45,932 nt of DNA from Bacteroidaceae bacterium (GTDB lineage: Bacteria; Bacteroidota; Bacteroidia; Bacteroidales; Bacteroidaceae): the NCBI GenBank assembly GCA_017560945.1, contig JAFZDY010000027.1:1-45932 (forward strand). Direction: 5' to 3'. A program made the translations under genes and the position numbers. Below are positions 17,669-45,722 of this stretch, one piece after another (within the stretch, counting starts at the first letter, position 1; each line of letters begins with the position of its first letter). The notes beneath the pieces were generated by a model. It ran no database searches. It was given only the letters and a program-made list of their open reading frames with translations, and was not told the origin of the DNA.

Positions 17669-19057
17669 ATGAAGAAACAAACTATTTTCACCCTCATGCT
17701 GGCCGCCACACTTGTCGGTCACGCTCAGCAGGGCGGCATCAGTTCCGATATGCTGAAACAGATTACCAATGCCTACCAAGGCTCCACCACCGATCGTGCG
17801 CTCATGAATGCCATTTCGGCCAACGATGTGCGCACCCTTGCCCTTAACCAAGAGAACCTTCGTGGAGGGCTCGACACCCACTTCACCCATCGTGTAGAGT
17901 CCAAGGGCATTACTAATCAGGAGCAGAGTGGTCGATGCTGGCTCTTTACAGGCTTCAACGTCCTTCGTGCCAAGGCCATGGCTCGTCACGGATGGAGTCA
18001 GTGCGAATTTTCACAGGGTTACACCTTCTTCTGGGATCAGTTGGAGAAGTCCAACCTCTTCCTCCAAGGCATCATCGACACACGCGAGCGACCCCTCACT
18101 GACCAGATGGTAGAGTGGCTCCTCAAGCACCCCCTGAGCGATGGAGGAACCTACACAGGCGTGGCAGACCTCGTGGCCAAGTACGGCATTGTACCAGCCG
18201 AGGTAATGCCCGAGACCTATAACACCAACAACACCTCGCGCGTCACCTCACTCATCAAGCAAAAACTCCGCGAGTACGCCCTCCAATTGCGCGACACCAA
18301 GGAAAGCGACAAGGAACTCCAAAAACTCAAGACCGAGATGCTCGGCACCATTTACCGCATGCTCGTCCTCTCCATGGGCGAACCTGTGAAGGAGTTCACC
18401 TGGGCACCCAAGGACGCATCGGGCAAGCCCTTAGGCAAGGCACAGACCTACACCCCACAGAGTTTCTATAAGAAGTGGATAGGCGAGGACCTCAATGCCG
18501 ACTACGTCATGCTCATGAACGACCCCAGCCGCGACTATTGGAAGGTGTACGAAATCGACTTCGACCGCCACGTCTACGACGGACACAACTGGCTTTATGT
18601 CAACCTCCCCATCGAGGAAATCAAGCACATGGCCTTTGCTAGCATCCAGGACAGCACCATGATGTACTTCTCGTGCGACGTCAACAAGGAACTCAATGCC
18701 ACCCGTGGCCTCCTTGATATGAACAACTACGATTATGCTTCCCTCTTTGGCACCACCTTTGGCATGGACAAGAAGCAACGCATCCAAACCTTCGATAGCG
18801 GCTCCTCACACGCCATGACCCTCATGGCCGTAGACGTAGACCCCGATGGCACTTACAACAAGTGGATGGTCGAGAACAGCTGGGGAGCCTCTCATGGCTA
18901 TCGTGGTCACCTCATCATCACCGACGAGTGGTTCGACGAATACATGTTCCGCCTCGTAGTGAACAAGAAGTACGTCCCCTCAAAAGTAATGGATGTACTC
19001 AAGCAGAAGCCCATCCGCCTTCCCGCCTGGGACCCCATGTTCGCCGAGGAGGAGTGA
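17669..19057 (+). CDS. pepC: Secreted C1-family aminopeptidase (PepC/bleomycin hydrolase type)
   Basis: 462 residues. The cleavable signal peptide MKKQTIFTLMLAATLVGHAQ predicts export to the periplasm, unlike the cytoplasmic PepC of Firmicutes. The papain-like triad is visible: Cys90 in QEQSGRCWLFTGFN (preceded by the oxyanion Gln84 or Gln86), His381 in GSSHAMTLM and Asn403 in VENSWGASHG. The C-terminus is short and acidic (MFAEEE). It should trim amino-terminal residues from peptides. Codon use is rich in C-ending codons compared with flanking genes. Divergent from tamB. No clear T-run terminator is seen; repeat DNA starts about 50 bp after the stop. Confidence 0.93.
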   Translation: MKKQTIFTLMLAATLVGHAQQGGISSDMLKQITNAYQGSTTDRALMNAISANDVRTLALNQENLRGGLDTHFTHRVESKGITNQEQSGRCWLFTGFNVLRAKAMARHGWSQCEFSQGYTFFWDQLEKSNLFLQGIIDTRERPLTDQMVEWLLKHPLSDGGTYTGVADLVAKYGIVPAEVMPETYNTNNTSRVTSLIKQKLREYALQLRDTKESDKELQKLKTEMLGTIYRMLVLSMGEPVKEFTWAPKDASGKPLGKAQTYTPQSFYKKWIGEDLNADYVMLMNDPSRDYWKVYEIDFDRHVYDGHNWLYVNLPIEEIKHMAFASIQDSTMMYFSCDVNKELNATRGLLDMNNYDYASLFGTTFGMDKKQRIQTFDSGSSHAMTLMAVDVDPDGTYNKWMVENSWGASHGYRGHLIITDEWFDEYMFRLVVNKKYVPSKVMDVLKQKPIRLPAWDPMFAEEE

Positions 19058-19107
19058 TTTCAAGGTTCAAAATTCAATTTAGACACGGATGACACGGATG
19101 AATAGGT

Positions 19108-19352
19108 GGACCCTCCCCCTTGCCCCCTCCAAATGAGGGGTGAAATGTGTTATCCTAATGAAGGCGAGCCTAAGGTTAATAATTGGTTGTCTTGGCAGAC
19201 CCTTTACCTGTCTTCCCTTTTGTTTGCCGACTTTATTGGGTGGGGAGTATCAAGTTCTGCAGCACTTTCTACTCCCCTCCATAGAGGGCGATTGCGAGCT
19301 GGCACAGCAATCGGGGAGCCTTAGCGACGGAGGACGGGCAGGGGGAGGGTCC
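19108..19352. repeat. 245-bp MITE-like element with long terminal inverted repeats
   Basis: The left end GGACCCTCCCCCTTGCCC (19108-19125) and right end GGGCAGGGGGAGGGTCC (19336-19352) are reverse complements apart from one extra T. The interior is not related to any gene I recognise. It belongs to the family at 150-280 and in the nqr operon. Just outside both ends are CACGGATGACACGGAT / CCGCGTCATCCGCGTCAT repeats in opposite orientation (19084-19102 and 19361-19390). Confidence 0.8.
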
Positions 19353-19455
19353 GCCTATTTATCCGCGTCATCCGCGTCATCTGCGGATGAAGAATTGCCA
19401 CGTGCCGCATGGCTCCTTTGAATTTTGAATTTTGAACTTTGAATTCTCTACTCGT

Positions 19456-21331: not shown

Positions 21332-22678
21332 ATGGCAAACTTAGTAAAGTTACGTAAAGGTTTGGACATCAATCTGAAGGGAAAACCTGCACGGGAATTG
21401 CTCGAAGTGAAGCAGTCGGCAAGTTATGCACTTTGCCCCGATGACTTCACTGGTGTTACTCCCAAAGTGGTTGTCAAGGAGGAGCAGATGGTCAAAGCCG
21501 GGGAGGCCTTGTTCATTGACAAGAATCATCCCGAAGTAAAATTCGTTTCGCCTGTTAGCGGTAAGGTGACACTGGTTGAGCGTGGTGCTCGTCGTAAGGT
21601 GCTCAGTATTCGTGTAGAAGCAGTTGGAAACGAAGTAGTAGATTTTGGAAAGAAGAGTGTGGCATCGCTCAACGGTGCTCAGGTGAAGGAGGCTCTGCTC
21701 GAGGCTGGTCTTTTCGCATTCTTCAAGCAGCGTCCTTACGACGTAGTTCCTAATCCCGAGGTGGCTCCTCGTGCCATCTTCGTGTCAGCATTTGACTCTC
21801 AGCCTTTGGCTCCCGAGTTTGAGTATGTGTTGAATGGTCAGGAGGCTGATTTCCAAACAGGATTGGACGCCTTGGCAAAGGTGGCTCCTACTTACTTGGG
21901 CGTGAGCGCTAAGCAACAATCAGTTGCATTGACTCAGGCTAAGAATGTAACAGTAACCGTGTTTGATGGTCCTCACCCTGCAGGTAATGTAGGTGTACAG
22001 ATCAATCATGTGGCTCCTGTAAATAAGGGCGAAGTGGTATGGACATTGGGTGCTGAGGAGGTAATCTTCATTGGTCGCTTGTTCAACAATGGTTGTGTAG
22101 ACTTTACTCGCACTATTGCCGTAGCTGGTTCGGAGGTAAATGCTCCAGCTTATGCTCGCGTGAAGGTGGGAGCTCAGATTGAGAGCGTGTTGAAGGGTCG
22201 CTTGGCTGAAGGTAAGAACTTGCGCATCATCGATGGTAATGTATTGATTGGATGCAAGAGCTCAATGGAGGGCTTCGTAGGTGCACACTCAACTGCCTTG
22301 ACCGTGATTCCCGAAGGTGACGACGTGCATGAAATGCTCGGATGGATTATGCCTCGCTTCGACCAATATAGCACAAGCCGTAGTTACTTCAGCTGGTTGC
22401 TTGGTAAGAAGGAGTACACCATCGATGCTCGTGTGAAGGGTGGCGAGCGCCACATGATCATGAGTGGTGAGTATGACCGCGTGTTCCCCATGGACATCAT
22501 GCCCGAATACTTGGTGAAGGCCATCATCGCTGGCGACATCGACCGCATGGAGGCTTTGGGTATTTATGAGGTGGCTCCTGAGGACTTTGCCCTGTGTGAG
22601 TTTGTTGATTCATCAAAATTGGAGTTGCAACGTATTGTCCGCGAAGGATTGGATGCACTCAGAAAGGAGATGGAATAA
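21332..22678 (+). CDS. nqrA: Na+-translocating NADH:quinone reductase subunit A
   Basis: 448 residues, usual for NqrA. The N-terminus carries the conserved K.G.DI.L.G.P entry (KLRKGLDINLKGKPA), then CPDDFTGVTPKVVVKEEQMVKAGEALF and a VSPVSGKVT barrel-like hinge. NqrA is the hydrophilic subunit on the cytoplasmic face and contributes to quinone binding. First gene of nqrABCDEF, which couples NADH oxidation and quinone reduction to Na+ export and provides the sodium motive force in Bacteroidales. nqrB follows after a 122-bp gap filled by a palindromic repeat. Confidence 0.97.
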   Translation: MANLVKLRKGLDINLKGKPARELLEVKQSASYALCPDDFTGVTPKVVVKEEQMVKAGEALFIDKNHPEVKFVSPVSGKVTLVERGARRKVLSIRVEAVGNEVVDFGKKSVASLNGAQVKEALLEAGLFAFFKQRPYDVVPNPEVAPRAIFVSAFDSQPLAPEFEYVLNGQEADFQTGLDALAKVAPTYLGVSAKQQSVALTQAKNVTVTVFDGPHPAGNVGVQINHVAPVNKGEVVWTLGAEEVIFIGRLFNNGCVDFTRTIAVAGSEVNAPAYARVKVGAQIESVLKGRLAEGKNLRIIDGNVLIGCKSSMEGFVGAHSTALTVIPEGDDVHEMLGWIMPRFDQYSTSRSYFSWLLGKKEYTIDARVKGGERHMIMSGEYDRVFPMDIMPEYLVKAIIAGDIDRMEALGIYEVAPEDFALCEFVDSSKLELQRIVREGLDALRKEME

Positions 22679-22693
22679 ATTAAATAAAGAAGA

Positions 22694-22785
22694 GGACCCC
22701 ATCCCAGCCTTCCCCAAGGGGAAGGAGTAAGTAGAGTTCAAATTCTATTCACTCCCCTTTCTTGAGAGGGGCAGGAGGAGAGTCC
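22694..22785. repeat. Palindromic repeat between nqrA and nqrB
   Basis: 92 bp from GGACCCCATCCC to GGAGAGTCC. Internal hairpins: CCTTCCCC-AA-GGGGAAGG (perfect) and CCCCT..AGAGGGG. As RNA it could form a closed outer stem with two inner hairpins. It occupies nearly the whole intergenic space. Confidence 0.85.
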
Positions 22786-22800
22786 AATATTAGAAAGATT

Positions 22801-23970
22801 ATGAAAGCGTTAAGAAATTATCTCGACAAAATAAAGCCTAACTTTGAGGAGGGAGGCAAGCTTCACGCGCTGCGTTCGGTGTTCGATGGCTTTGAAACAT
22901 TCTTGTTCGTGCCTAACACCACCACTCGCCGCGGTGTGAACATTCATGATGCCATCGATTCGAAGCGCATCATGTCATTCGTGGTAATCGCGTTGATTCC
23001 GGCTTTGTTGTTCGGTATGTACAACGTAGGTTATCAGCACTACACAGCTGCTGGGCTGATGGCGAGTGCAAGTTTCATCGAGGTCTTTGGCTATGGCTTC
23101 TTGGCCGTGTTGCCTAAGATTTTGGTGTCTTATATCGTAGGTCTTGGCATTGAGTTTATCATTGCTCAGTTGAAGAACGAAGAGATTCAGGAAGGTTTCC
23201 TCGTATCAGGTATGTTGATTCCGATGATTGTGCCCGTGAACTGCCCGTTGTGGATTTTGGCCGTGGCTACAGCCTTCTCAGTAATCTTTGCAAAGGAAGT
23301 GTTCGGTGGTACAGGTATGAACGTGTTCAACGTTGCTCTCATCGCGCGCGCGTTCCTTTTCTTTGCTTATCCTACTCAGATGTCAGGTGACACTGCTTGG
23401 GTGGCTACTGAAAGCATTTTCGGCCTTGGTGCTAACTTGCCCGACGGATTCACCGCCGCAACAGCCCTTGGTGAGGCTGCCACCGTGGGTGTACCAGCCT
23501 TTGACATGAACATGGTATGGGGCTTCATCCCTGGCTCTATCGGTGAGACAAGCGTTATCGCTATTCTCATTGGTGCAGCTATCCTCCTTTGGAGTGGTGT
23601 AGCTAGCTGGAAGACTATGCTCAGCGTATTCGTAGGTGGTGCATTGATGGCTCTCGTATTCAACACCTTCGGTGGTGAAGGCAACTACATGGCTCAGATG
23701 CCTTGGTATCAACACCTCGTACTCGGTGGTTTCTGCTTCGGTGCTGTATTTATGGCTACTGACCCCGTGACTTCTGCACGTACCGAAACAGGTAAGTTCA
23801 TCTTCGGTTTCCTCGTAGGAGCTATGGCGGTAATCATCCGTGTGCTCAACCCTGGTTACCCCGAAGGTATGATGCTTGCCATCCTGTTGATGAACGTATT
23901 TGCTCCGCTGATTGACTACTATGTAGTACAAAGCAACATCAATCGTCGTGCGAAGAGAATGGTAAAATAA
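22801..23970 (+). CDS. nqrB: Na+-translocating NADH:quinone reductase subunit B
   Basis: 389 residues from the ATG at 22801 (MKALRNYLDKIKPNF). The longer in-frame reading from 22762 starts inside the repeat and is rejected. Multi-spanning membrane subunit: hydrophobic segments from residue about 57 onward. The covalent FMN site family motif appears as DGFTAAT (215-221), so Thr221 is the likely flavinylated residue; the usual form is DGxSGAT, so two positions differ. NqrB also binds riboflavin and forms the Na+ path with NqrD/E. Second gene of the operon. Confidence 0.95.
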   Translation: MKALRNYLDKIKPNFEEGGKLHALRSVFDGFETFLFVPNTTTRRGVNIHDAIDSKRIMSFVVIALIPALLFGMYNVGYQHYTAAGLMASASFIEVFGYGFLAVLPKILVSYIVGLGIEFIIAQLKNEEIQEGFLVSGMLIPMIVPVNCPLWILAVATAFSVIFAKEVFGGTGMNVFNVALIARAFLFFAYPTQMSGDTAWVATESIFGLGANLPDGFTAATALGEAATVGVPAFDMNMVWGFIPGSIGETSVIAILIGAAILLWSGVASWKTMLSVFVGGALMALVFNTFGGEGNYMAQMPWYQHLVLGGFCFGAVFMATDPVTSARTETGKFIFGFLVGAMAVIIRVLNPGYPEGMMLAILLMNVFAPLIDYYVVQSNINRRAKRMVK

Positions 23971-23983
23971 TAAAGGAAACAAA

Positions 23984-24080
23984 GGACCCCATCCCAGCCT
24001 TCCCCTCTATGGGAAGGAGTAGATGGTAAAACAATACATTTCACTCCCCTCCATAGAGAGAGGGGCACGGAGGAGGGTCT
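23984..24080. repeat. Palindromic repeat between nqrB and nqrC
   Basis: 97 bp, GGACCCCATCCC to GGAGGGTCT. Inner hairpins CCTTCCC-ctctat-GGGAAGG and CCCCT..AGAGGGG. Same plan as the copies at 22694 and 24775, with diverged loops. Confidence 0.85.
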
Positions 24081-24095
24081 GTTGATTTAAAGATT

Positions 24096-24764
24096 ATGAA
24101 TACAAATAGTAATAGCTATACAATTATCTATGCTTCGGTAATGGTTATTATCGTAGCATTCCTGCTTGCTTTTGTAAGCTCTTCACTGAAGGAGACACAA
24201 AACAAGAATGTGGAGTTGGATACTAAGAAGCAGATTTTGGCTGCCCTCAACATCACAGACGTGAAGGATGCCGAGGCTGCTTACAACACTTATGTGAAAG
24301 GCGATATGCTGATGGAGGCTGACGGTTCACTCATAGCTAACAACGGAGCCTTCAACACTACTTACAAAGGTGAGATTGCCGAAGGTCGTCTGCATGTATT
24401 TGAGTGCGAAGTAGACGGAGCCAAAAAGTATGTTATCCCTGTATATGGTGCAGGTCTTTGGGGTCCAATTTGGGGATACATCGGCTTGAACGAGGATAAG
24501 AACACTGTATATGGTGTTTACTTCTCTCACGCAGGTGAAACTCCGGGTCTTGGTGCTGAAATCACTTCACCCAAGTTCCAAGGTCAGTTCCCTGGTAAGA
24601 AGGTGTTCGATGGTGCTAACGTAGGTCTCAGCATTGTGAAGAACGGCCGCGTAGCCAACCCTGACTACGAAGTGGACGGAATCTCAGGTGGAACAATCAC
24701 CTCTAACGGTGTAGATGCCATGCTGAAGGATTGCTTGAAACCTTATGAGAAGTTTTTAAAATAA
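24096..24764 (+). CDS. nqrC: Na+-translocating NADH:quinone reductase subunit C
   Basis: 222 residues. One N-terminal membrane anchor (residues about 9-30) and a periplasmic FMN-binding domain. GETPGLGAEI (147-156) and DGISGGTITSNGV (195-207) are the family signatures; Thr200 in SGGTIT is the expected attachment site for the covalent FMN by ApbE. The usual core is SGAT, so Gly replaces Ala here. It carries electrons between NqrF/D/E and NqrB. No apbE is visible in this window. Confidence 0.96.
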   Translation: MNTNSNSYTIIYASVMVIIVAFLLAFVSSSLKETQNKNVELDTKKQILAALNITDVKDAEAAYNTYVKGDMLMEADGSLIANNGAFNTTYKGEIAEGRLHVFECEVDGAKKYVIPVYGAGLWGPIWGYIGLNEDKNTVYGVYFSHAGETPGLGAEITSPKFQGQFPGKKVFDGANVGLSIVKNGRVANPDYEVDGISGGTITSNGVDAMLKDCLKPYEKFLK

Positions 24765-24774
24765 GAATAAATAA

Positions 24775-24868
24775 AGACCCCATCCCAGCCTTCCATCTAT
24801 AAGAAGGAGTAGATGGAAAGCAAAACATTTATTACACTCCATAAAAGGAGGAACACGGAGAAGGGTCT
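24775..24868. repeat. Palindromic repeat between nqrC and nqrD (diverged copy)
   Basis: 94 bp, AGACCCCATCCC to GAAGGGTCT. The inner hairpins are retained in reduced form (CCTTC-catctataa-GAAGG; CTCC-ataaaa-GGAG). Paired bases have shrunk on both sides together, suggesting selection on, or mechanism-based maintenance of, pairing. Confidence 0.8.
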
Positions 24869-24886
24869 GATAATTAAATTTAAAAT

Positions 24887-25525
24887 ATGGCTAGTTTATT
24901 TTCAAAGAAGAATAAAGAAGTTCTCTTTACTCCGCTTGGCTTGAACAACCCTGTGACCGTACAGGTACTCGGTATCTGTTCAGCCTTGGCCGTGACTGCT
25001 CAACTCGAGCCGGCCATTGTGATGGGACTTTCGGTGACCGTAATTACTGCTTTTGCAAACGTGGTCATCTCTCTGTTGCGCAACACCATCCCCAATCGTA
25101 TCCGTATCATCGTACAATTGGTAGTTGTAGCTGCGCTCGTAACCATTGTGAGTGAAATATTGAAGGCCTTTGCTTACGACGTGAGTGTACAACTCTCAGT
25201 GTACGTGGGTCTTATCATTACTAACTGTATCCTGATGGGACGTCTCGAAGCCTTCGCTATGCAGAATGGCCCGTGGGAGTCTTGCCTTGATGGTATCGGA
25301 AACGGACTTGGCTATGCTAAGATTCTTATCATTGTGGCTTTCTTCCGCGAGTTGCTCGGCTCAGGCACTTTGTTTGGCTTCCGCATCATTCCTGAGGTTT
25401 GCTACGAATGGGGATACCTTAACAATGGCCTTATGTTGATGCCTCCTATGGCACTCATCATCGTGGCTTGCATTATTTGGTACGAGCGTTCAAAGCATCC
25501 CGAATTGCAAGAGAGTAGTAACTAA
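24887..25525 (+). CDS. nqrD: Na+-translocating NADH:quinone reductase subunit D
   Basis: 212 residues, an integral membrane protein with about six helices. Typical blocks are NNPVTVQVLGICSALAVT (the Cys of the NqrD/E half-site motif), YVGLIITNCILMGRLEAFA (second Cys, in the conserved ITNC) and LLGSGTLFG. NqrD and NqrE are paralogues forming an inverted pair that holds an intramembrane 2Fe-2S centre between paired cysteines. The extreme C-terminus is short and polar. Position in the operon and length are standard. Confidence 0.96.
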   Translation: MASLFSKKNKEVLFTPLGLNNPVTVQVLGICSALAVTAQLEPAIVMGLSVTVITAFANVVISLLRNTIPNRIRIIVQLVVVAALVTIVSEILKAFAYDVSVQLSVYVGLIITNCILMGRLEAFAMQNGPWESCLDGIGNGLGYAKILIIVAFFRELLGSGTLFGFRIIPEVCYEWGYLNNGLMLMPPMALIIVACIIWYERSKHPELQESSN

Positions 25526-25620
25526 TTATTAATTATAAATTATGAATTATGAAAGTGTAATTGCTGAAAGGGTAAAATGCTCATCCAGAATTTACAATTC
25601 AGAATTCAGAATTATTTAAT
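25526..25620. repeat. AT-rich repeat between nqrD and nqrE
   Basis: 95 bp. AATTATAAATTATGAATTATGA at the left and GAATTTACAATTCAGAATTCAGAATT at the right are loosely inverted heptad-like repeats, unrelated to the GC-rich palindromes in the three preceding gaps. Dispersed repeats of this style also occur as TTCAARG clusters elsewhere in the window. Confidence 0.6.
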
Positions 25621-26217
25621 ATGGAATATTTAAGCTTATTTGTAAAGTCCATCTTTGTGGACAACATGATATTCGCCTACTTCTTGGGAATGTGTTCCTA
25701 CTTGGCAGTATCTAAGAATGTGAAGACAGCTCTTGGCTTGGGTATCGCCGTTACATTCGTGTTGTTGGTGACCCTTCCTGTGAACTATCTATTGGAGAAC
25801 TTTGTGCTCAAGGCCAATGCCCTAGTCGAGGGAGTTGACCTCTCGTTCCTCTCATTCATCCTGTTCATCGCCGTGATTGCAGCTATCGTGCAATTGGTAG
25901 AGATGATTGTTGAACGCTTCAGCCCTTCGTTGTATGCTTCGCTCGGTATCTTCCTTCCGTTGATTGCCGTTAACTGCGCCATCATGGGTGCTTCGCTCTT
26001 CATGCAGCAGCGCCTTTTCAGCGATATGGGTGAAGTACTCTGCTATGCTGCAGGTTCAGGTATTGGTTGGTTGCTTGCCATCGTAGGCCTTGCCGCCATT
26101 CGCGAGAAGTTGGCATACTCTGACGTGCCCGCTCCTTTGAAGGGCCTCGGTATCACCTTCATCACCGTAGGTCTCATGGCTATGGCGTTTATGTGTTTCT
26201 CTGGTTTGAAAATCTAA
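25621..26217 (+). CDS. nqrE: Na+-translocating NADH:quinone reductase subunit E
   Basis: 198 residues, about six membrane helices. NqrE signatures: [30 protein letters not shown] (Cys26 in LGMC) and [16 protein letters not shown] (Cys120 in VNCAI), the two cysteines that with those of NqrD bind the intramembrane 2Fe-2S cluster. It starts directly after the AT-rich repeat and is followed by nqrF after only 21 bp, the one tight junction in the operon. Confidence 0.96.
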
Positions 26218-26238
26218 TAAAGAAAGGAGAATTTATCA

Positions 26239-27504
26239 ATGACGAATTTAATATTAGCGAGCATCGGAGTATTCCTCGGCATCGTCCTCGTGTTGGTGAT
26301 TATGTTGCTCGTAGCAAAAAAGTATTTGTCGCCCAGCGGCAATGTGAACGTTACCATCAATGGTAAGGACACTATCTCAGTGGAACAGGGTAGTAGCTTG
26401 CTCAACACCCTTTCGGCTCAAGGCATTTACCTCTCATCAGCTTGTGGTGGTAAAGGCTCATGCGGACAGTGCAAGTGTCAAGTTGTTGAGGGTGGTGGCG
26501 AAATCCTCGATTCAGAGAAGGGCCACTTCACTCGTAAGCAAATCAAGGACAATTGGCGTTTGGCTTGCCAATGCAAGGTTAAGGGCGATCTCGGCATTAA
26601 GGTGGACGAGAGCGTAATGGGTGTGAAGGAGTACGAATGTACTGTTATCAGCAACAAGAACGTGGCTACCTTCATCAAGGAATTCAAGGTACAACTTCCC
26701 GAAGGTGCACAGATGGACTTCCTCCCTGGTTCTTATGCACAAATAAAGATTCCTGCATTCTCTATGGATTATGACAAGGATATCGACAAGAGCCTCATTG
26801 GCGACGAGTATCTCCCTGCATGGGAAAAGTTCGGTCTCTTCCCCTTGAAGTGTGTCAACCCCGAGGAGACCGTTCGTGCTTACTCTATGGCTAACTATCC
26901 TGCCGAGGGTAATGTATTTATGCTCACTGTACGTATCGCTACACCTCCTATGAAGGCAGACCGTAGCGGATTTATGGATGTGAACCCTGGTATCGCTTCA
27001 TCTTACATATTCACCCTTAAGCCCGGTGATAAGGTAATCATGAGCGGTCCTTACGGTGACTTCCACCCACATTTCGACTCTAAACGCGAAATGATTTGGG
27101 TAGGTGGTGGTGCAGGTATGGCTCCTTTGCGTGCACAAATCATGCACATGACTAAGACTCTTAAGACAACTGATCGCGAGATGCACTACTTCTACGGCGC
27201 ACGTGCCTTGAACGAAGTGTTCTACTTGGAGGATTTCCTCGGTATCGAGAAGGAATTCCCCAACTTCCACTTCCACTTGGCTCTCGACCGTCCCGATCCA
27301 GCCGCCGATGCAGCTGGCGTGAAGTACACCGCAGGTTTCGTTCACCAGGTAATGCTCAACACTTATCTAAAGGATCACGAAGCTCCAGAAGATATCGAGT
27401 ACTACATGTGTGGTCCTGGCCCGATGTCAAAAGCTGTGGTAGCAATGCTTACCGACCTTGGCGTAGAGGAAAGTAGCATCATGTACGATAACTTTGGTGG
27501 ATAA
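26239..27504 (+). CDS. nqrF: Na+-translocating NADH:quinone reductase subunit F
   Basis: 421 residues. One N-terminal membrane helix (4-26); a plant-type 2Fe-2S ferredoxin domain with Cys69, Cys75, Cys78 and Cys110 (ACGGKGSCGQC and LACQC); then an FAD domain (RAYSMANYP, the RxYS motif) and an NADH-binding domain (GGGAGMAPLRAQI; C-terminal YDNFGG). It is the entry point: NADH reduces FAD, then the 2Fe-2S centre. A preceding AAAGGAG ribosome binding site is unusually strong for this phylum. A terminator follows at 27548-27582, closing the operon. Confidence 0.97.
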   Translation: MTNLILASIGVFLGIVLVLVIMLLVAKKYLSPSGNVNVTINGKDTISVEQGSSLLNTLSAQGIYLSSACGGKGSCGQCKCQVVEGGGEILDSEKGHFTRKQIKDNWRLACQCKVKGDLGIKVDESVMGVKEYECTVISNKNVATFIKEFKVQLPEGAQMDFLPGSYAQIKIPAFSMDYDKDIDKSLIGDEYLPAWEKFGLFPLKCVNPEETVRAYSMANYPAEGNVFMLTVRIATPPMKADRSGFMDVNPGIASSYIFTLKPGDKVIMSGPYGDFHPHFDSKREMIWVGGGAGMAPLRAQIMHMTKTLKTTDREMHYFYGARALNEVFYLEDFLGIEKEFPNFHFHLALDRPDPAADAAGVKYTAGFVHQVMLNTYLKDHEAPEDIEYYMCGPGPMSKAVVAMLTDLGVEESSIMYDNFGG

Positions 27505-45586: not shown

Positions 45587-45722
45587 ATGTCATTAGCAAA
45601 GCATTTCACTCCCCTCCCTTGGGGCGTAGCAAGGCCTCGAGAATTGATTAAATATCAATTCGTGCCGTAGCGAGGGGAGCATAGTGCCCTATGCGACGGA
45701 GGATGGGCAGGGGGGAGGGTCC
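45587..45722. repeat. Half copy of the palindromic repeat family
   Basis: It begins with a block shared with 19788-19813 (GTCATTAGCAAAGCATTTCA) and ends GGGCAGGGGGGAGGGTCC. The matching left terminus is missing; inside there is an imperfect GAATTGATT..AATCAATTC-like inversion (45640-45662). Confidence 0.7.

Follow-up and report, generated by a model that had tools for sequence, protein, structure and literature searches.

Palindromes in three nqr operon gaps are probably copies of a dispersed repeat that also occurs in frame within conserved Bacteroidaceae proteins

The window, by which we mean the whole stretch of 45,932 nucleotides analysed, is contig C26 of a Bacteroidaceae assembly of 2.35 Mb and 82% completeness (G000, the own genome), and by gene assignment it carries on its forward strand an nqrABCDEF operon (21332-27504) that holds three copies of one element. 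These lie, all on the plus strand, in the nqrA-nqrB gap (22679-22800, 122 bp), where a copy of 92 nt spans 22694-22785, in the nqrB-nqrC gap (23971-24095, 125 bp), where a copy of 97 nt with the CTCTATGG loop subtype spans 23984-24080, and in the nqrC-nqrD gap (24765-24886, 122 bp), where a copy of 94 nt spans 24775-24868. An earlier note had described one related 92-97-nt palindrome in each of these gaps, and this is accurate in positions, sizes and ends. The three sequences are predicted to fold beyond chance when compared with dinucleotide shuffles (z-scores of -2.8 for A-B, -4.1 for B-C and -5.6 for C-D), but the further claim that every copy keeps an outer stem and two inner hairpins is in poor agreement with the predicted minimum-energy folds, which differ from copy to copy: an outer stem with three hairpins in A-B, one long hairpin in B-C and a rearranged fold in C-D. 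Neither does the third copy appear to have lost hairpin bases from both sides in concert, as had been suggested, since relative to its orthologue in the same-genus genome G004 it lacks one base on a single side of the first hairpin, the other single-base gaps falling outside that hairpin and being accompanied by several substitutions. Judged from these sequences, the C-D copy looks like a case of decay and not of coordinated shortening; its score in the covariance model described below is 63.2 bits, as against 97.5 for the B-C copy. When the B-C and C-D orthologue pairs are combined, pairing is kept in four of ten one-sided stem changes, and both C-D copies, those of G000 and G004, end AGACCC...GAAGGGTCT. 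The nqrD-nqrE gap is filled by an AT-rich palindrome of another kind (25526-25620), the AATTATGAATTATG arms of which are also found in the nqrC-nqrD gap of two relatives (L040 and L041).

Most copies of the element measure about 88-115 bp and have GGACCC or AGACCC as their left end and GGGTCC or GGGTCT as their right end. The left arm consists of GGACCCCATCCC, a hairpin CCTTCCCC..GGGGAAGG and then AGTGAAT or AGTAGAT, while the right arm reads TTCACTCCCCTCCC..GGAGGGG.AAGGGGGAGGGTCC, and each arm is able either to fold on itself or to pair with the opposite one. In one own-genome copy (L018) two right-type arms stand face to face, and the arms therefore look like diverged, inverted halves of one unit. 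Most arms furthermore conform to a sequence rule for intrastrand triplex hairpins rich in G/C (a pyrimidine stem, a loop, the complementary purine stem, a short loop and a mirror purine stem, with one mismatch allowed per step). Of the right arms 64 of 73 do so and of the left arms 52 of 73, as against fewer than 0.1% of base shuffles, triplex formation itself being a prediction from sequence. Among the window's nqr copies, both arms of A-B pass, only the left arm of B-C does and neither arm of C-D. Arm complementarity is pronounced over 74 aligned copies, with 94.3% of cells paired (49-68% in slid controls) and two-sided changes at 10 of 29 pairs (1-5 pairs in slid controls), figures that are to be read with the alignment having been fitted to the tested fold; such complementarity can also persist by copying of one arm from the other.

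The window holds further copies, recognised by sequence match. One of full length (105 nt) occupies 175-279 on the minus strand with a partial left end alongside at 150-162, and a right-arm copy on the plus strand (45599-45722) has a hairpin loop that holds another palindrome, a second palindrome of the GGCGTAGCAAGG type or similar being likewise found within the element's hairpin loop at L014, L028 and L007. A degenerate, expanded copy to which no strand is assigned (19108-19352) is the innermost of three nested inverted-repeat pairs, enclosed by two others (19049-19453). Elsewhere, at L126, L130, L140, L158, L162, L168 and L173, a full element is immediately preceded by an incomplete left arm that breaks off close to the hairpin stem (CCTTC).

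A 93-base copy used as BLASTN query matched the own genome at 44 places, counting halves as well as full copies. A covariance model built from 13 copies and run on 61 genomes, which takes up a count that the earlier note had proposed, found matches in 20 of them, and it establishes that the repeat family is dispersed and not specific to nqr. At least 29 matches are listed for the own genome and 17-49 for each of seven same-genus relatives, so that eight of 15 same-genus genomes fall at 17-49, counts that are rough because some palindromes score on both strands, filters were stricter and at most 69 candidates were scored per genome. G001 has four weak matches, the same search found none in six other genomes of the genus (G006 and G010-G014), and weaker matches occur in some other families; at nine loci (L100, L102-L108 and L110) the two-armed layout is, by eye, kept with a different sequence. 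The exact left-arm pattern, 34 positions long, was found in 33 stretches when a species-representative genome set was searched, their titles being without exception those of Bacteroidaceae or Bacteroides sp. assemblies from deer, goat and sheep guts, and it is absent from the viral contigs searched. A 94-base query likewise had no match in plasmid, phage and E. coli collections at the settings used, and an Rfam scan of the window gave no match at gathering scores. Homogenisation of copies within a genome by conversion was considered and rejected, as mean identity is the same within and between genomes (0.767). We consider it probable that the three nqr palindromes belong to a palindromic repeat which is dispersed and non-autonomous and has its home in ruminant-gut Bacteroidaceae, a conclusion held jointly with the insertion account given below.

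NqrB was matched in 12 of the 15 same-genus genomes and at full length in 11, which form the basis for comparing gaps. The element occupies A-B, B-C and C-D in G000 and only B-C and C-D in G004, where an AT-rich palindrome takes its place in A-B; the A-B copy is hence confined to G000 among the 11, and the remaining nine genomes have no element in their nqr gaps. In three of these, G002, G007 and G008, which have 94-95% NqrB identity, the B-C gap is just 15-17 bp; the C-D gap is 19 bp in G008 and holds an AT-rich palindrome in G002 and G007, and several element-free relatives have unrelated palindromes in the corresponding gaps. The B-C and C-D copies of G004 are 95% alike, the best non-nqr copy reaching 87%, and their loop subtype is common to the G000 pair. 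By sequence comparison the B-C and C-D copies are siblings, one derived from the other, most likely before G000 and G004 split, and gene conversion between the two copies inside G004 is a possible alternative to such an old sibling origin. The A-B copy, by inference, was a separate arrival. Three copies in succession are less odd than they appear because copies cluster: among the matches listed, 14 adjacent pairs lie less than 1.6 kb apart where 1.45 are expected (127 positions).

With flanks of up to 700-1500 bases on each side and a simple ORF caller, 73 copies were placed as 38 intergenic, 28 within open frames and seven across an edge. The enclosing frame is at least 150 codons long for 26 of the 28, and 21 of these 26 copies are hosted by recognised proteins: three in RNase R, two in LeuS (an identical protein on two contigs of G003), one in an ABC-F ATPase, three in a PAD_porph/agmatine deiminase-type protein, four in a glycoside hydrolase family 2 type protein, one in a FeoA-FeoB fusion and seven at two sites of one gene for a ResB-CcsB fusion. 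Two more share one protein without a family match, and the last three frames (L124, L134 and L176) may be due to chance. Ten proteins were scanned for families, namely nine representatives with whole elements and atpG with a half element, and a recognised family was found in eight of the nine and in atpG, other in-frame copies being assigned by common flanks. Besides its in-frame half element, this own-genome atpG (L027, 1228-2346) contains a translated TTCAAGG-type repeat. All three forward phases and the reverse strand are used to read the insertions, the typed consensus being open in two of six frames, and in RNase R or LeuS the predicted translation of the inserted segment is of the GPHP..LPQGEGV or SLPSL.EG.GEG type. 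Filled and empty sites can be compared directly at two genes. In leuS the element is present in G003 and absent from the 13 other genus genomes for which this position was read, leuS having had no match in G005. The place of the insert is taken in the relatives by other sequence, which means that target bases were replaced, and no duplication is visible. RNase R carries the insert in G000, G004, G007, G008 and G009, has by eye a shortened remnant of it in G002 and is without it in G001, G005, G010, G011, G012 and G014, the site having been read in all genus genomes but G003, G006 and G013. The earlier note had offered a mobile element with a strong preference for such gaps as one of two explanations, and in outline the mobile element stands, given that copies are dispersed and sometimes nested and that sites filled in one relative are empty in another; the strong gap preference does not, as 26 of 73 copies are enclosed by frames 150 codons long or longer and those in gaps are found in both orientations.

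As regards the manner of spread, where the comparison covers one genome per species and shows no recent movement, we propose that the element would insert by some activity in trans or by way of hairpin breakage, leaving no target duplication and being able to replace target bases; that gene-breaking insertions would be lost, the survivors being copies in gaps or in frame; and that in nqr one of the B-C and C-D copies would have arisen from the other by local copying, with A-B coming separately. At assigned ends, none of the 73 copies has a target duplication of three or more bases, and 2-base duplications number eight as against 6.7 by shuffling. Y1 transposition leaves no target duplication and REPINs likewise comprise two inverted hairpin units, so a REPIN-like element, in which two inverted REP units are moved by a RAYT/Y1 (IS200/IS605-like) transposase, would account for the two inverted hairpin units with their spacer and for the lack of target duplication. 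Such an identity is nonetheless improbable, since the Y1 transposase family PF01797 has no match in five of the eight high-copy genomes (G000, G002, G003, G005 and G007, with assemblies 65-91% complete, for which a lone absence means little and five together mean more), has a single match barely above the cut-off in each of G004, G008 and G009, and matches strongly in G012, where no copies were found; the outer ends of the 73 copies furthermore lack a GTAG or CGTC tag, and GTAG-type REP identity is rejected on this ground. A classical MITE, left behind without genes by an ordinary DDE insertion sequence, would explain terminal inverted repeats and intergenic copies, but it agrees poorly with the missing target duplications, with the replaced target bases in leuS and with the lack of a parent element with matching ends among eight candidates inspected, and we regard it as very improbable. 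None of these eight half-copy or paired-end candidates in the own genome, with ends 51-1183 bp apart, proved to be an autonomous version, there being ordinary genes, repeats or nothing between the ends. Genes for S23/23S-IVP proteins (PF05635) were also considered as an autonomous partner and rejected, since their flanks, where read, have other, often minisatellite-like arms and by eye no GGACCC arms. These genes often occupy gaps between other genes and are flanked there by inverted arms of a minisatellite-like kind. Of 28 loci, 14 (L060, L062, L064-L068, L072, L080-L082, L086, L087 and L089) have arm duplexes below -70 kcal/mol, mismatched arms having a mean of -46 (sd 13), and one such unit of S23 gene and inverted minisatellite fills the nqrA-nqrB gap of G007. 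A tentative version of the proposed account, which we consider unlikely as it stands, dispenses with a transposase altogether: extruded or triplex-forming arms would be cleaved at the tips of the hairpins, and another palindrome would serve as the repair template. If true, this would account for the absent target duplication, the replaced target bases and the local sibling copies as well as for partial arms ending at the hairpin beside full copies and palindromes nested in loops, and inverted minisatellites bearing S23 genes could enter those operon gaps in the same way.

The other explanation offered by the earlier note was that of RNA structures with a job in nqr, and in its fullest form it would have the hairpins selected as RNase III or other processing sites, or as barriers to decay, that set subunit ratios. 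The strong predicted folds speak for it, as do the fillings of some corresponding gaps in relatives by other palindromes and the retention of two of the three copies at the same positions in G004, where 90 of 98 (B-C) and 83 of 98 (C-D) positions are alike while fourfold sites of nqrA, nqrB and nqrC are at 54-57%. Across 33 orthologous pairs, not independent of one another, the element is without exception more alike than the fourfold sites of neighbouring genes, and in 11 of 11 intergenic pairs it is at 0.76-0.93 as against 0.35-0.71 for the neighbours' fourfold sites. Protein constraint could explain this for the 21 in-frame pairs but not for the 11 intergenic ones, whose excess identity a purely neutral passenger would not give, and this observation leans toward the RNA reading; the intergenic flanks that remain agree at only 99 of 154 positions, where the same alignment gives about 55% for random sequence, and the model search by which copies were found favours conserved ones, decayed copies being under-counted. 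A selected RNA function in nqr is however rather unlikely, since nine of the 11 genomes with full nqrB do without the element, three of them with the short B-C gaps described above, since the C-D copy is decayed, and since the family occurs in both orientations (15 gap copies with and 12 against co-directional genes, nine convergent and two divergent, orthologues included) and in frame within genes. The unrelated palindromes in the same gaps can also be held against a job of this particular element, and the comparison of relatives' orthologues for compensatory changes, which the earlier note had suggested, gives it no support. In nine intergenic orthologous pairs, three of which share loci, differences fall at 48 of 521 stem, 26 of 182 loop and 36 of 178 spacer positions; pairing survives 18 of 40 one-sided stem changes, chance expectation being 17.0 of 38 scorable, and one of four two-sided ones. 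There is accordingly no sign of selection on pairing in these nine pairs. We can conclude that the nqr copies are most likely tolerated passengers and not a dedicated control device, and that an nqr-specific RNA job is unlikely, even though the strongly structured RNA predicted between the nqr cistrons may alter processing or decay as a side effect.

The literature search, in which subscription journals were largely outside coverage, found no paper on a GGACCC-type repeat family, but known systems offer parallels. The element works like a protein-invading palindrome of the kind known as Rickettsia palindromic elements (RPEs) and has the build of an inverted PIT pair, and membership of RPE or TM-ECO proper is not claimed. 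The PIT/TM-ECO intrastrand triplex motif of E. coli, in the parts of Holder et al. 2015 (PMC4666352) consulted, consists of a C-rich stem, a loop, a G-rich stem, a 3-nt loop, a second G-rich stem and an optional GTC end; the same parts report five inverted pairs of two types each in K-12, no strand bias, no association with transposons, phages or plasmids, and an always intergenic location in MG1655. Arm layout, GTC end and pairing of two types are shared with what is described there, whereas the Bacteroidaceae copies studied are inverted pairs and are also found in frame in proteins, and a BLAST search of 20,395 E. coli records at E 0.01, with the low-complexity filter on, gave no nucleotide match. 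RPEs are described in excerpts of PMC2229807, PMC10969869 and PMC3767692 as palindromes of about 100-150 bp that are both intergenic and in frame in conserved protein genes, orthologues having common sites. In-frame insertion into conserved genes, empty sites in homologues and readability in more than one frame are shared with them, phylum and host are different, and the likeness is one of description. Set beside the REP/RAYT features given in the consulted portion of PMC3733652, the element is similar in having two inverted hairpin units, in being dispersed and in leaving no target duplication, and differs in the Y1 distribution and the outer tags discussed above. The BrickBuilt MITE of Porphyromonas gingivalis, strictly intergenic and minisatellite-containing according to an excerpt of PMC10969869, is likewise a repeat family of a Bacteroidales species, but the present element is made of hairpin arms and has copies in frame. 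Rickettsia and Wolbachia are known to carry palindromes in frame in conserved enzymes, and MITEs of enterobacteria and of Neisseria have been reported in frame too (PMC2229807 and PMC3767692). The present family, with its triplex-type arms, likewise invades proteins of gut Bacteroidaceae, and filled and empty sites can be compared between close relatives. It lends itself to testing how a palindrome of 100 bp can enter RNase R, leucyl-tRNA synthetase or a FeoA-FeoB fusion with the reading frame kept, and it serves as a warning that copies should be counted genome-wide before hairpins in operons are called regulators.
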